Shown here: piece after piece, positions 1 through 6,045 of the stretch
Numbering within the stretch: the stretch's first letter is position 1
Layout of the letters: each line of letters starts with the position of its first letter
Assembly: GCA_021160245.1 (NCBI GenBank)
Contig: JAGHCW010000060.1
Location: forward strand, 1 to 6,045
Length of the DNA: 6,045 nt
Source: a bacterium
GTDB taxonomy: Bacteria > B130-G9
Direction of reading: 5' to 3'
Translations under genes and position numbers: made by a program
The notes under the pieces: generated by a model
Told to the model about the DNA's origin: nothing
The model's input: the letters and a program-made list of their open reading frames with translations, nothing else
Database searches by the model: none

Positions 1-2
1 GC

Positions 3-158
3 GCCGACTGGAGCGATGCAGGGCTTTCAGAGCCCGGAACCACTGGAGCGTTTGAGTTTGAGGCGGCAACGGAGGGCGTCTTAGATTTCTATACAAAGTC
101 CGTGGACAACGCCGGAAATGACGAGGACTTCACGGGCATGGATTGCTCTTGCGTCTTT
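3..158 (+). repeat. Partial Ig-like unit (type C) at the window edge
   Basis: The window opens at the Trp strand of a unit. The visible part contains G-A-F-E-F, then D-F-Y-T-K-S-V-D-N-A-G-N, and ends in C-S-C just before the next D-G-T-A-P-V-S. A terminal cysteine before the boundary is the type C trait. The array therefore continues upstream by at least part of one more three-unit cycle. Confidence 0.8.
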
Positions 159-3100
159 GATGGGACGGCTCCCGTCTCGTGGCTCGACTCGCCGCAATTG
201 AGTACTCGTTCATCGATTGCCTTGGATTTCGGAGTTGACGATGAGGTCTCCGGCGCCCGCCGCGTCGATCTTTACTACAGGTTCACCGAGGACTGCTCTG
301 GGGCCGGCGGCTTTTCGGAATGGGACATCTGCGATTCAACGACGGCCACGCTCGGAAGTTTCTCATTCAGCAGTGGTTCCGAGGGGACGGTTGAGTTCAA
401 AACTCTAGCTGTGGACAATAATGACAACGTCGAGACGAAGGAGGTTGCCGACACAGCAACGAGGTTCGATTTCAGCCCACCAACATCAGAGTGCGCCTCA
501 ATATACTGCACCTCCGTAGCGACGATAGCCGTCCAATACAGCGCCTCGGATAATTGCTCTGACATCGAGTTGGTAACCTTATTTTACAGGTTCGACGGCG
601 GAGAGTGGCAGGAGGGGGACTCGTCCTCTCTCGAGGCCGGAGATTTCGCGTTCCACCTGGGCTTCGGTGAGGGGCACTACGAGTTTTACACTCAGGCTCG
701 GGATGCAAGCGGCTTTTCAGAGTCGAAGTCCGGAGCCGATACGGAGACATTTTTGGACATGATCCCTCCATCTTCAGAGGCGGACTCCGCCAATGGGGCG
801 ACCGATTCGACCTTCCCTGTCTCTTTCGACACTCAGGATGATGGGTGCGGCGCCTCAAGAACACTGCTTTATTATCGCTGTGAGGATTTGGACTGGGCGT
901 ATTTCGGCCAGGAGGCAGGCGCAGGCGGCACGTTTGACTTCGTGGCTGAGAACGGCGATGGCCTCTATGGATTCTACACGATTGCAATAGACCTCGCCGG
1001 CAATGCCGAGGAGTCCAAGACCGAGCCCGATTGCGAGACTACTTTGGACACAACTGCGCCGACGTCTGTGTGCGAGGCGCCGGGCTTAAGCTCCGAGGCG
1101 ACGATAGCCGTTGTTTTCACGGCATCGGACGAGACCTCTGGGATTGATACGGTCTCGCTCTATTTCAGGAGTTCTGATTGTGGATCAACTCCGGAGGGCG
1201 ATTGGCAATTTTATCAATCCGGTGGCGCGGGCGAGAGCTCTGGCACGTTCGATTTCACGGCAGAAGGACAGGGGCTATACCAATTCAGAACGATAGCGCG
1301 CGATAATCTATCGAACGTTGAGGAGAAGTCTGCGTTTGATGCCCAGACGGTTCTGGATAATGAGCCGCCAACCTCCTCATGCAGCTGTCCCCGGTATTCT
1401 ACATCGAGCAGTGTTTTGGTTGAGGTGGCTGCGGAAGATGTGTGCAGCGGCATCGGTTCATTCGCGGCGTTTTGGCGAGATGCGGGCGAGGACTGGGAGC
1501 AATATGGTTCGTGGGATGCGACTGGCGACACGCTCGAGTTCCGACTCGAGATGCCGGCCGAGGGGACGTACGAGCTTATGATTGAGGCCAAAGATGAGGT
1601 CGGCAATCGGGAGAGCAAGTCAAGCTTTGACTGCATAACGGCGTTCGACGTAACCGCTCCATCATCGGCGTGTATCGTCCCGGACTTCTCATCTGAGAAG
1701 GTCTTCGACGTCGAATTTATCGCGACTGACTCTGTGTCCGGTGTGAGACACATGGGGCTTTATTATCGGTTTCAGTCCGGTGATTGGGAATTGATCGAGG
1801 AGATAGAATACCCAACAAGCGGCGCCATATCATTCAGCGCGGAGCACGGAACGGGTACATATCAATTTGTGACGATTTCGGAGGACAACGCCGGAAACGC
1901 GGAGGAGAAGGAAGCTGCAGGCTGCGAGCTGTACTACGAACCTCAACCGCCGATCTCCACCTGTTACGCCGAGGATGCGACCAATGAGGGTCCTATCCGG
2001 ATAGACTTTGAGGCCTGGGGCAGCTCACAGGGCATTGCCCGGGTTGACCTCTACTTCCGCTTCAGTCCGGACTGCAGCGGCTCGGTCGGCTTCTCGGACT
2101 ACACGCTTTGTGATTCAATGGCGAACGTTGCCGAAGGAGCGTTTTGGTTTGATTGGGCAACGGTCGGCGTGCTTGAGTTTAGGACACTCGCACTGGATGG
2201 AAATGGCGAGGCGGAGCAGAAGGACGGCAGCGATATAGCGGTCAGGTTCGATATTGTCGAGCCGAGTTCAACAGCGTCCTGTGACGATTACTATTACACG
2301 CATATCATGCCGATAGCTTTTTCGGCGTCGGATGATTGCTCTGGCGTTGGCAAAGTTAGCATCGAGTATAGTTTCAATCTCGGAGAGTGGTTCGGGTATG
2401 ACGCCTACTACGGCTCGGGCGAATCTGGCGTCATCGATTTCGTCGTCAGCCCTTATGCAGAGGGACGATTCGATTTCCGAACGATAGCGGAGGATGTCGC
2501 CGGTAACGTTGAGGGCGCAAAATCCGCTGCCGAGGCGAGCGCGTGGTTTGACAAGACGGCGCCGGTCTCATTCTGCACGGCTCCGGAGTTCACGAATCAA
2601 ACGACGATAGATGTTGATTTCAACGCATCTGATGGCGCAAACGGCTCGGGAGTGGCTGAAACGTCGCTCTGGGCAAGGTATTCGGGCAACGAGTGGCTGG
2701 ATACTGGGCTATCCGCCACATCTGCAACCGGCGCCTTTGCATACAACGGCGCGGTGGACGGAACGCTCCAGTTCTTCACGCTCTCTACCGACATGGCGTC
2801 AAATGCGGAGCAGAACAAGGTCGATGCAGATTGCATAATCACCATCGACACAGTTGCCCCAGAATCATCATGCCAGGCGCCGGTATGCGCGGACAACCTC
2901 CCGATTGCGATCCAATTTGTGGCGCGTGACGCAAGGCCGGGCTCGGGCATACATTCCATAAAGCTTTTCTATCGCGTCGATGGCGGCGAGTACACCGAAT
3001 TTGGCTATCCATCATTCGGCACGCAAGGGACGATAGCCTTCAGCCCTCCGGGAGGCGCGGAAGGTGTTTATGACTTCTACACCGGGGCGATAGATAGAGC

Positions 3101-4778
3101 CGGGAACATAGAGCCGCCTCCCGACTATCCCCCGTCAACCACCGCCTACGACAAAACGCCACCCAATATCGCTGTGCAGTGCGCCGAGTTCTCGTCCGGG
3201 GCAACCGTTCAAATCGCCTACGAGGCATTGGATGTCCATGCTGGGCTTGCGGACGTCCGATTGATGTATCGGTTCGGCGGCTCAGACTGGACAGACTCCG
3301 GCCTTCAGAAGACTTTCTCAGAGGGCGTCTTCCTCTTCAGCCCGGAAGCCGATGGCAATTACCATTTCGGGCTTATCGCCGAGGATGCTTGCGGTAATGC
3401 GAGCGATGTGGAGGATTGCGTCTGCGAGACATTCGTCGATCGCCTGACTCCCTCATCGAGTTGCACTTGCGATGATTACACGAGGTCCAGCACAGTTCGT
3501 GTCCATTTTACCTCGCAGGATTCGGGGAGCGGCGTATCCAGCGTCAGGCTACTTTACATGGACGAGCGCGATCTTGATTGGCGCTTAAGCGGTCTCACAG
3601 AGTCATCTGCTGATGGCACATTCGAGTTTGAGATTCAGTCTTCCGAGGGCGCATACCGCTTTGCGACTATCGCGAAGGACGTGGCCGGTAACGAGGAGTC
3701 CGAGCCTTATGTTGCGGACGATTCGGTCATCTACGACGGCACGCCGCCATCGTCTTACGCTTACTCGAAAGCGTCGGTTGACCTTTTGCCGATTTCGGTT
3801 GGCTACTCCGCTATTGACTTCATCTCGGGCGTTGCGTCTGTTGGGCTCTACTATCGCTACTCATCTCCGACTGGGAAAGCGGCAGGCGCTTGGCGATATT
3901 CTGGTCTCAACTCACAAGCGCCCGATGGGACATTCCATTTCGCGCCTCAAGAGGGCCAGGGGGTTTATGATCTCTGTACAAGAGCCACTGACATCGCGGG
4001 CAATGCGGAGAATTACCCGGATGTTCCGGACAGCGTCACTCGCTATCAGGTCACAAGACAGGTCGAGCTCACCTATTGGGTCGAGAAGAGCGAGCAGGTG
4101 GTGGGCGAGACGCTGCGACTCTATGGGAGTCTATACGCCCCACTCGGCGCGTCCCCAGTTGATCTCTACGCTGCCGTTAGGATTCCCGATGGGACATTGC
4201 TCTTCTTCGACAGATTCTCTTCCGAAATACAGCCCTGGGTATCGGGACTATCATTTGAGCCCGGCGCGACCATAGATGATCTGCTCATCTTCGAGCTTGA
4301 ACTGGACGATTCGTTGCCGGGAGGGAACTATCAATTCTACGTGGCGCTACTTGACAGCATCACGGGCGAAGTTAGGAGCAACATCGCGGACGACGCTTGG
4401 CGCTTCATTCCATCAACGGGGCCAAAGATCACGGTGTCCCTCCAAACGAACGAGACGACATACCAAACCGGGGATACATTCGACGTAATCGTCGCGGCAC
4501 AGAACTCCGGCGAGGCAAAGGTCGTTGACTTTTATCTGGCGGCGTATCTGCCGAATGAGGCGGCGCTATTCTTTCCATCGTTTACGGATTCCGCCGACGC
4601 GTTCGCGTTCGATGTTTCAATCGCCGCCGGGCTCTTCTTCGGCCCTGAGCGGATAGTTCGCGTGCCTATTCCAGAGAGCGCTCTGGTCGGGGATTACATT
4701 CTATTTGCAGCATTCACATCGCCTGGAACGCTGGGATGTGAGAGCAACATCGCCCAGACGAGCTTTGCGGTGGAATAG
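3..4778 (+). CDS. Giant secreted/surface Ig-like repeat protein, C-terminal part (5' end outside window)
   Basis: The frame is open from the left edge to TAG at 4776-4778, giving 1591 visible residues. The first in-frame GTG (102) lies inside a repeat and is not a real start. In order it holds one partial and 13 full Ig-like units (to about 4046), then two copies of another beta-rich module (4062-4775). The units share the pattern D-x-T-A-P-x-S-x-C, then I-x-V-x-F-x-A-x-D-x-x-S-G, L-Y-Y-R, a Trp, G-x-F-x-F, and T-I-A-x-D-x-A-G-N-x-E. This is the signature of bacterial Ig-like domains, close in style to the OmpL47-type repeats of surface proteins. Cysteines are frequent and regularly placed, which fits export and disulfide formation (inference). 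The N-terminus, where a signal peptide or catalytic domain would be, is not visible. The C-terminus ends F-A-V-E with no LPXTG motif, no hydrophobic anchor and no recognisable sorting domain. A role in adhesion, matrix or cell-surface display is plausible but unproven. Confidence 0.93.
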   Translation, partial: ADWSDAGLSEPGTTGAFEFEAATEGVLDFYTKSVDNAGNDEDFTGMDCSCVFDGTAPVSWLDSPQLSTRSSIALDFGVDDEVSGARRVDLYYRFTEDCSGAGGFSEWDICDSTTATLGSFSFSSGSEGTVEFKTLAVDNNDNVETKEVADTATRFDFSPPTSECASIYCTSVATIAVQYSASDNCSDIELVTLFYRFDGGEWQEGDSSSLEAGDFAFHLGFGEGHYEFYTQARDASGFSESKSGADTETFLDMIPPSSEADSANGATDSTFPVSFDTQDDGCGASRTLLYYRCEDLDWAYFGQEAGAGGTFDFVAENGDGLYGFYTIAIDLAGNAEESKTEPDCETTLDTTAPTSVCEAPGLSSEATIAVVFTASDETSGIDTVSLYFRSSDCGSTPEGDWQFYQSGGAGESSGTFDFTAEGQGLYQFRTIARDNLSNVEEKSAFDAQTVLDNEPPTSSCSCPRYSTSSSVLVEVAAEDVCSGIGSFAAFWRDAGEDWEQYGSWDATGDTLEFRLEMPAEGTYELMIEAKDEVGNRESKSSFDCITAFDVTAPSSACIVPDFSSEKVFDVEFIATDSVSGVRHMGLYYRFQSGDWELIEEIEYPTSGAISFSAEHGTGTYQFVTISEDNAGNAEEKEAAGCELYYEPQPPISTCYAEDATNEGPIRIDFEAWGSSQGIARVDLYFRFSPDCSGSVGFSDYTLCDSMANVAEGAFWFDWATVGVLEFRTLALDGNGEAEQKDGSDIAVRFDIVEPSSTASCDDYYYTHIMPIAFSASDDCSGVGKVSIEYSFNLGEWFGYDAYYGSGESGVIDFVVSPYAEGRFDFRTIAEDVAGNVEGAKSAAEASAWFDKTAPVSFCTAPEFTNQTTIDVDFNASDGANGSGVAETSLWARYSGNEWLDTGLSATSATGAFAYNGAVDGTLQFFTLSTDMASNAEQNKVDADCIITIDTVAPESSCQAPVCADNLPIAIQFVARDARPGSGIHSIKLFYRVDGGEYTEFGYPSFGTQGTIAFSPPGGAEGVYDFYTGAIDRAGNIEPPPDYPPSTTAYDKTPPNIAVQCAEFSSGATVQIAYEALDVHAGLADVRLMYRFGGSDWTDSGLQKTFSEGVFLFSPEADGNYHFGLIAEDACGNASDVEDCVCETFVDRLTPSSSCTCDDYTRSSTVRVHFTSQDSGSGVSSVRLLYMDERDLDWRLSGLTESSADGTFEFEIQSSEGAYRFATIAKDVAGNEESEPYVADDSVIYDGTPPSSYAYSKASVDLLPISVGYSAIDFISGVASVGLYYRYSSPTGKAAGAWRYSGLNSQAPDGTFHFAPQEGQGVYDLCTRATDIAGNAENYPDVPDSVTRYQVTRQVELTYWVEKSEQVVGETLRLYGSLYAPLGASPVDLYAAVRIPDGTLLFFDRFSSEIQPWVSGLSFEPGATIDDLLIFELELDDSLPGGNYQFYVALLDSITGEVRSNIADDAWRFIPSTGPKITVSLQTNETTYQTGDTFDVIVAAQNSGEAKVVDFYLAAYLPNEAALFFPSFTDSADAFAFDVSIAAGLFFGPERIVRVPIPESALVGDYILFAAFTSPGTLGCESNIAQTSFAVE
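159..1046 (+). repeat. Three-domain super-repeat, cycle 1 (units at 159, 468, 756)
   Basis: The cycle is 888 nt long. The A unit has a long loop after V-D-L-Y-Y-R with a cysteine pair (E-D-C-S-G and D-I-C-D-S) and ends without cysteine. The B unit starts S-E-C and has an internal D-N-C-S-D. The C unit has no cysteine at its start but has D-D-G-C and Y-Y-R-C inside, and ends E-P-D-C. The A and B units match those of cycle 3 (1938-2549) better than their direct neighbours. Confidence 0.75.
1047..1937 (+). repeat. Three-domain super-repeat, cycle 2 (units at 1047, 1356, 1647)
   Basis: The cycle is 891 nt long. The A unit has a loop insertion (S-S-D-C-G-S-T-P-E-G-D-W) and the segment E-G-Q-G-L-Y, which returns as E-G-Q-G-V-Y in the last A unit. 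The B unit opens S-S-C-S-C with an internal D-V-C-S-G and ends F-D-C. The C unit opens S-S-A-C and ends A-G-C. It is followed by a degenerate boundary, E-P-Q-P-P-I-S, instead of D-x-T-A-P-x-S. Confidence 0.75.
1938..2846 (+). repeat. Three-domain super-repeat, cycle 3 (units at 1938, 2250, 2550)
   Basis: This is the longest cycle at 909 nt. The A unit repeats the paired-cysteine loop of cycle 1 (P-D-C-S-G and T-L-C-D-S). The B unit has A-S-C near its start and an internal D-D-C-S-G. The C unit ends D-A-D-C and is followed by A-P-E-S-S-C. The aligned A loops and following strands of cycles 1 and 3 need only one gap over about 70 residues. Confidence 0.75.
2847..3734 (+). repeat. Three-domain super-repeat, cycle 4 (units at 2847, 3150, 3438), the most diverged
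   Basis: The cycle is 888 nt long. The A unit lacks the loop insertion and instead has extra residues at A-R-P-G-S-G-I and a proline-rich end (P-P-P-D-Y-P-P). In the B unit the internal D-x-C-S-G motif has become D-V-H-A-G, and the unit ends D-C-V-C. The C unit opens S-S-C-T-C, shares D-L-D-W with the C unit of cycle 1, and has lost its terminal cysteine. Confidence 0.7.
3735..4046 (+). repeat. Terminal Ig-like unit (type A) closing the array
   Basis: This unit has a full-length D-G-T-P-P-S-S start, S-G-V-A-S-V-G-L-Y-Y-R, a loop insertion before the Trp (S-S-P-T-G-K-A-A-G-A-W) and A-T-D-I-A-G-N-A-E. At 104 residues it fits type A. Its start has no cysteine, matching the missing cysteine at the end of the unit before it. 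The next boundary motif is absent, and the protein passes through a short linker into the C-terminal modules. Confidence 0.8.
4062..4412 (+). other. C-terminal beta-rich module, copy 1 (protein domain)
   Basis: About 117 residues, unlike the Ig-like array. The domain begins V-E-L-T-Y-W-V, then has G-E-T-L-R-L-Y-G-S-L, V-D-L-Y-A-A-V-R-I-P-D-G-T-L-L-F-F, a Trp, a run of acidic and hydrophobic strands, and L-P-G-G-N-Y-Q-F-Y-V-A-L-L-D. Alternating hydrophobic residues point to a beta-sandwich. The alignment with copy 2 is visible by eye at V-D-(L/F)-Y and (P/V)-G-(N/D)-Y. I cannot name a family with certainty. Confidence 0.65.
4425..4775 (+). other. C-terminal beta-rich module, copy 2 (protein domain, end of protein)
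   Basis: About 117 residues and the last domain of the protein. It runs K-I-T-V-S-L, T-G-D-T-F-D-V-I-V-A-A-Q-N-S-G, V-D-F-Y-L-A-A-Y-L-P, A-L-F-F-P-S-F, V-G-D-Y-I-L-F-A-A-F, and ends S-F-A-V-E. It is a diverged duplicate of the module before it. Its place at the extreme C-terminus, with no anchor after it, makes it a candidate for a sorting, docking or capping domain; that is inference from position only. Confidence 0.65.
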
Positions 4779-4819
4779 CTAAATAGCGCTGAAACAAGTA
4801 TCCGGCCCGGCGGGCGCTC
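4779..4819. other. Short convergent intergenic gap
   Basis: These 41 bases lie between the TAG of the repeat protein and the TGA (on the - strand) of the receiver domain. The gap holds a short GC-rich inverted repeat (GCCCG-G-CGGGC) but no run of T or A on either side, so an intrinsic terminator is not supported. Transcription from both sides would converge here. Confidence 0.6.
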
Positions 4820-5239
4820 TCACTGCTTATCCATGTCTGTCAGAATCTGCTGCAGCTTCTTCATTAAGGTCCCCAACATGTATGGCTTATGTATGAACCC
4901 GGTCAACCCCATTCCGGCAAAGCGTTCGACGACATCCTGCTCGCTGTATCCACTGGAGATGATGATCTTGGCATCCGCTTGAATATTGCGCAATTTCCGG
5001 AAAGCCTCTTTGCCATCCATGTCCGGCATTGTGAGGTCCAGCAGGACGCAGGAGATATCATCCATTCGTGAGTCGAATATCTCGAGCGCCTCACGGCCGT
5101 TTTTGGCCGCCAGAATTTCAAATCCCATCTTCTCAAGCATCCGCTTTGTTGTTTTCCGAACAGACGCCTCGTCATCGACGACCAGTATCGTCCCACTGGC
5201 CTGCCACTCCTTCGTCTTGACGCTTTCCTTCTTGTCTGT
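4820..5239 (-). CDS. CheY-like receiver domain, downstream half of an interrupted hybrid histidine kinase
   Basis: This frame of 139 codons plus TGA begins directly after the kinase stop codon and is in the same frame. It encodes a linker (E-W-Q-A-S-G-T) and a complete receiver: I-L-V-V-D-D-E acidic pocket (residues 18-24), phospho-acceptor Asp68 in L-L-D-L-T-M-P-D-M-D-G (codon 5036-5038), Ser96 in I-I-I-S-S-G-Y, and Lys118 in H-K-P-Y. Nothing follows the receiver except a short tail, so there is no DNA-binding output domain. No ATG, GTG or TTG occurs in frame ahead of the acidic pocket. The first ATG is at 5140-5138 and would yield 106 residues lacking beta-1 and the metal-binding Asp pair, a likely non-functional product. 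The natural reading is that this is the C-terminal REC of a hybrid kinase. Whether it is translated at all is uncertain. Confidence 0.8.
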   Translation of the reverse strand, partial: TDKKESVKTKEWQASGTILVVDDEASVRKTTKRMLEKMGFEILAAKNGREALEIFDSRMDDISCVLLDLTMPDMDGKEAFRKLRNIQADAKIIISSGYSEQDVVERFAGMGLTGFIHKPYMLGTLMKKLQQILTDMDKQ

Positions 5240-5242
5240 TTA
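5240..5242 (-). other. In-frame TAA stop in the kinase-receiver linker
   Basis: On the - strand the reading is P-V-stop-T-D-K-K-E-S-V, with open frame on both sides. One base change (for example GAA, CAA or AAA to TAA) would explain it. An indel would not, because the frame is the same before and after. The stop sits inside a perfect 12-base palindrome, CTGTTTAAACAG (5236-5247). Confidence 0.85.
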
Positions 5243-6045
5243 AACAGGGCCTTCGTATGCGGGCAACAGTATCTTGAACGTAGTGCCGCGGCCCTTTCCG
5301 CTATGGACGCTCAGTGTCCCCTTATGGCCGCGCACGATTCCAAGCACTGCCGCAAGCCCTAGTCCGCGTCCTGTAAACTTCGTTGTGAAAAATGGGTCAA
5401 ATATCTTGTCCAGCGTCTCCTTGTCCATACCCTTACCGGTATCCGACACCTCCAGCGTCACATAAAGACCCTCCGGGATATCGGCCGCCAAATACGCCTC
5501 ATCCAAGAACGAGCGGTCGCACTCCAAGAAGTCGGTACTAAGCCTTATTGCCCCAATCTGGTCGCCGATCGCCTCCGAGGCGTTAGTTACAAGGTTCATG
5601 ATGATCTGTCGGATTTGCGTGGCGTCAGCCATGACAAAGGGGAGCTCGGGCGAGAAATTAAACGAGAGTGTAGCCTTTTTTGACAAGGAGATTCTAAGCA
5701 GTTCTGACATCTCCTTCGCGGTCACTGAGAGGTCGAGTGGGCGAACAATGAACTTCCCCTTGCCTGAATAGGCCAACATCTGCTTGCAGAGGTCGGCTGC
5801 GCGGCGTGAAGCCTTAAGGACTTCCCCGATGTTTTGTCGCGCCGGTGAAGAGGGGAGCAGATCAGACATGGCGAGGTCCGCGTTGCCTAGAATTGTCATC
5901 AGAAGGTTGTTGAAATCATGGGCGATGCCGCCCGCCAAAACGCCCAAGCTCTTGAGCTTCTGTGCGTGTTGCATCTGCGACTCAAGCCGCCGGCGCTCCG
6001 TTACATCTCGGATCGCAGCAAGTACGTGAGGCGTTTCATTAAAGC
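5240..6045 (-). CDS. PAS-linked sensor histidine kinase, C-terminal part (5' end outside window)
   Basis: The frame is open to the right edge, giving 267 complete visible residues. The first part (6043-5975) reads as the end of a PAS/PAC domain: L-A-A-I-R-D-V-T-E-R-R-R-L-E. Counting from the Met codon at 5974, which is internal and not the true start, the HisKA phospho-acceptor is His19 in G-G-I-A-H-D-F-N-N (codon 5918-5920). The ATPase has the N box with Asn131 in N-L-V-T-N-A-S-E-A-I, the G1 box with Asp178 in D-T-G-K-G-M, the F box F-D-P-F-F-T-T-K, and the G2 box G-R-G-L-G-L-A-A-V (5345-5371). The protein ends E-G-P-V then TAA. All catalytic boxes are intact, so autophosphorylation should be possible. 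The family usually continues into a receiver domain, which here lies directly downstream in frame. The sensed signal and any transmembrane segments lie outside the window. Confidence 0.93.
   Translation of the reverse strand, partial: FNETPHVLAAIRDVTERRRLESQMQHAQKLKSLGVLAGGIAHDFNNLLMTILGNADLAMSDLLPSSPARQNIGEVLKASRRAADLCKQMLAYSGKGKFIVRPLDLSVTAKEMSELLRISLSKKATLSFNFSPELPFVMADATQIRQIIMNLVTNASEAIGDQIGAIRLSTDFLECDRSFLDEAYLAADIPEGLYVTLEVSDTGKGMDKETLDKIFDPFFTTKFTGRGLGLAAVLGIVRGHKGTLSVHSGKGRGTTFKILLPAYEGPV

Follow-up and report, generated by a model that had tools for sequence, protein, structure and literature searches.

The closest described systems to the gene investigated here are the CckA-type hybrid histidine kinases (NCBIfam HisKinCckABruc and HisKinCckACaul, and the VirA-like PRK13837), which have the same domain order and whose profiles scored best both before and after the stop codon that interrupts the gene. 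An S-G-Y sequence after strand 4 and a phenylalanine three residues before the lysine were described for the CckA receiver (PMC9981736), and we observed both in the receiver of this gene. In contrast to the CckA-type kinases, a TAA codon parts the kinase from the receiver. The kinase part reached 211 and 184 bits and the receiver 93 and 78 bits against an equivalog cut-off of 1000 bits, a comparison that the missing N-terminus biases against the gene. Since these scores lie far below the equivalog cut-offs, the kinase is, as judged from its sequence, a relative of CckA and not CckA itself.

The window, i.e., the whole stretch of DNA that was analysed, is a complete contig of 6,045 bp (contig 35) from a genome of 3.43 Mb in 244 contigs. 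The translation of the minus-strand frame running from 6043 to 4820 contains a single internal stop, preceded by FKILLPAYEGPV and followed by TDKKESVKTKEWQASGTILVVDDEASVRKTTKRMLEKMG, and finishes with ILTDMDKQ. Upstream of this stop lies the 3' part of a histidine kinase gene (5240 to 6043), whose 267 codons up to the TAA encode the end of a PAS domain, a HisKA domain with the H-box AHDFNN and a HATPase_c domain. The 5' end of the gene is off the contig. No start for the kinase lies inside the window and, because the window is the complete contig and ends at 6045, the N-terminal part is missing, so that the sensor/PAS part is mostly absent. The TAA itself (5240 to 5242, minus strand) falls in the variable linker that joins the ATPase to the receiver. 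Behind it, a further 139 codons of this frame are open (4820 to 5239, minus strand); they cover the remaining linker and a complete receiver without a usable start, and the frame closes at a TGA (4822 to 4820).

Searches against Pfam confirmed the domains on each side of the TAA. Before the stop, we found HisKA (2.8e-6; 27.7 bits, cut-off 26.9) and HATPase_c (1.4e-21; 77.5 bits, cut-off 26.4); after it, Response_reg was matched from 5188 to 4853 over positions 1 to 110 of 111 (1.6e-25; 89.9 bits, cut-off 30.2). The open frame behind the stop is therefore not due to chance, and the kinase ending at 5242 to 5240 followed by 139 open codons with an intact receiver, as reported in a preliminary description made from the letters alone, was seen both in the frame and in the Pfam matches. 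In the numbering of the read-through protein, the receiver has D290, D291 and E292, the phospho-acceptor D336, S364-G365-Y366 and K386. The acidic pocket, phospho-acceptor and lysine of a hybrid kinase (D290, D291, D336 and K386) are thus kept, but kinase and receiver do not form one polypeptide in the given sequence. The gene belongs to the hybrid histidine kinases with the common HisKA-HATPase_c-REC arrangement, which are well known.

On the plus strand, positions 1 to 4778 are occupied by an open-ended frame of 1,591 codons for a repeat protein with OmpL47-type and Ig-like repeats (NF047446, 93 bits; Big_13). This family is large in the genome, with 99 matching stretches on more than 20 contigs and many frames of 1,500 to 3,700 codons. 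The receiver frame faces the repeat-protein gene tail to tail, their stops being only 41 bp apart (4779 to 4819), and a simple scan found no terminator-like site between the converging stops. That the contig belongs to this genome is supported by the occurrence of the repeat-protein family on more than 20 other contigs and by GC content (0.535 in the kinase region; other loci of this genome average 0.527 with an sd of 0.015). Both contig ends lie inside multi-copy gene families. Another kinase of the same genome (L146; contig 229, 1 to 162) leaves its contig at the H-box region, the kinase core being the break point of two contigs in this assembly, this one and the window. With 77% DNA identity to the window kinase, it is a paralogue and not the missing part.

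Homologues were sought using the frame read through the stop as a query. Matches were obtained in 35 of 60 genomes at an E value of 1e-40 or better and in 48 of 386 genomes at 1e-85 or better, the gene's own genome being counted in both cases; 80 named loci from the genome collection came from Phycisphaerae, Desulfuromonadales, Geobacter, Chthoniobacter and others. The plasmid and viral collections yielded no close relative, and no same-genus relative of the gene was found among the genomes searched. Intact copies of the hybrid kinase exist widely: a linker stop was present in none of the 105 distinct aligned homologues (about 47 to 61% identical), in which the residue at the stop column varies (E, A, L, V, T, R, D, Q, S and others). 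The best relatives, at 61% (L055), 58% (G002) and 54% (G042) identity, are all continuous, which answers the preliminary description's question about the closest homologues. The open frames of G002 and G042 comprise 1324 and 753 codons, respectively. Among the relatives of the same family, G002 is the best; it has further sensor parts in its one frame and a different neighbour, glycosyltransferase-like as judged by eye. The linker of the window gene aligns to that of L055 without gaps and at equal length; the change is therefore of the substitution type, and paired frameshifts were ruled out. No paper on premature stops in hybrid kinases turned up in a literature search.

The other stops listed in the homologue searches within this subfamily were inspected. 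In G283, G209, G311, G268 and G056, the stop was the natural C-terminal one. In G081, G057, G034 (two cases) and contig 177 of the window's own genome (G000), the linker contains a stop and the receiver follows in frame, as in the window. However, an ATG or GTG stands just ahead of the first receiver strand in these loci and makes them two genes, whereas the window gene lacks such a codon. The split that the preliminary description proposed to look for in related genomes thus does occur as a linker stop, in distant relatives, but there the receiver has its own start. A relative in another assembly, likewise a hybrid kinase (L207; G350 contig 297, 2913 to 4085), is otherwise conserved but has a lone in-frame TAA; unlike the window stop, this codon lies in a conserved segment inside the ATPase domain and would, if real, destroy the kinase. 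Isolated interruptions therefore number 2 among about 75 listed matches of the 1e-85 search, window included, which gives a rough background. A stop recurring across relatives was ruled out, since the others inspected are C-terminal, belong to separately started genes or represent the G350 interruption.

The receiver as a regularly separate gene was also ruled out, since it has no start codon and its homologues are fused to the kinase. The codon list from 5239 to 5143 contains no in-frame ATG, GTG or TTG, and hence no ordinary start precedes strand 1, as stated in the preliminary description. The first in-frame ATG after the TAA, at 5140, falls within the receiver's first helix, past strand 1 and the acidic residues.

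We then considered the state of the receiver. The receiver keeps every one of the 17 columns that reach at least 95% conservation in the alignment of the 105 homologues, in agreement with the earlier claim that this half retains its key residues. The difference in identity between receiver and kinase (-0.101) ranked 32nd lowest of 106 (mean -0.087, sd 0.026), and third-position GC was similar, at 0.655 for the kinase half and 0.683 for the receiver half. The divergence of the receiver is ordinary given the kinase half, and there is no decay. Since a long-untranslated receiver is expected to decay, the stop arose recently, is an artefact or is bypassed. The S-G-Y that follows strand 4 is in keeping with the receiver having originated as the kinase's own.

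It is thus highly probable that we are dealing with a hybrid kinase carrying one isolated nonsense codon in its linker, caused by a recent mutation or by a sequence error or minority variant, and not with a new mechanism. We infer a truncated product and a recent or artefactual change; the interruption of a PAS-HisKA-HATPase-REC fusion in one of these two ways, as first suggested in the preliminary description, fits all the evidence. Either the organism would carry a recent nonsense mutation, or the metagenome contig would show a wrong base or a minority variant at this position.

To a genuine recent nonsense mutation, which would leave the kinase without a receiver and the receiver heading for decay, we give close to an even chance. 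Both halves are intact, and the stop lies directly after the ATPase in a linker that tolerates change, a place at which other kinase matches also end (covering only query residues 8-270, 9-266 and 15-263). Among the matches in the same genome, none of 42 to the receiver and none of about 98 others to the repeat protein has a real internal stop; the one TAG listed is a normal gene end. The assembly is therefore not generally error-prone, any error at this site would stand alone, and the clean state of the other genes leans towards a real base. However, no same-genus relative was found by which to date the change, and an error yields the same picture. We attach a lower, tentative probability to the TAA being solely a wrong base call, a consensus error or a base from mixed strains, the organism itself having an intact hybrid kinase. 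The contig is short, comes from an assembly of 244 contigs and breaks at either end within multi-copy gene families, which, like the untouched receiver, leans towards an error or a very recent change, but genes of the same families elsewhere in the genome are free of such stops.

An undecayed receiver is also compatible with an expressed receiver, contrary to the best explanation. It is nevertheless very unlikely that receiver-less and receiver-bearing forms are made on purpose, the receiver being fused or separate, through a leaky TAA or through initiation at the non-canonical candidates between 5191 and 5183 (ACG, ATA at 5188 and CTG at 5185). The only good Shine-Dalgarno-like sequence, AAGGAG (5207 to 5212, minus strand), speaks for such initiation, but it is poorly spaced, 15 nt from the ACG, 18 from the ATA and 21 from the CTG, and it encodes the K-E of the linker motif KEWQ, K-E-W being a protein motif common to relatives; no well-spaced ribosome-binding site was found ahead of the receiver. 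Moreover, naturally split relatives start at ATG or GTG. With respect to readthrough, a programmed stop would be conserved in relatives with coding sequence behind it, but none of the 105 homologues shares this stop, which is unique to the window sequence. No unusual RNA structure was detected downstream of it (folding z -1.2) and Rfam gave no match, which speaks against a structured readthrough signal. UAA is generally not the leakiest stop. Neither recoding or readthrough nor a CTG or ATA start, both offered as options in the preliminary description, thus gained positive support. Lastly, an alternative genetic code was ruled out, since kinase, receiver and repeat-protein homologues of the same genome have no internal TAA in their domains; on contig 177, TAG and TAA serve as ordinary gene ends.

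If the TAA is real, translation would end there, and the resulting kinase, lacking a receiver of its own, would have to pass its phosphate to another receiver; the 139 codons of the receiver would not be translated to a useful extent. For annotation, the effect is that the gene would be recorded as a kinase ending at the ATPase, with the receiver left unannotated or given as a fragment without its first strand. Beyond annotation, the finding has little significance, but if the stop were both real and bypassed, it would bear on the balance of receiver-free versus receiver-bound hybrid kinases.
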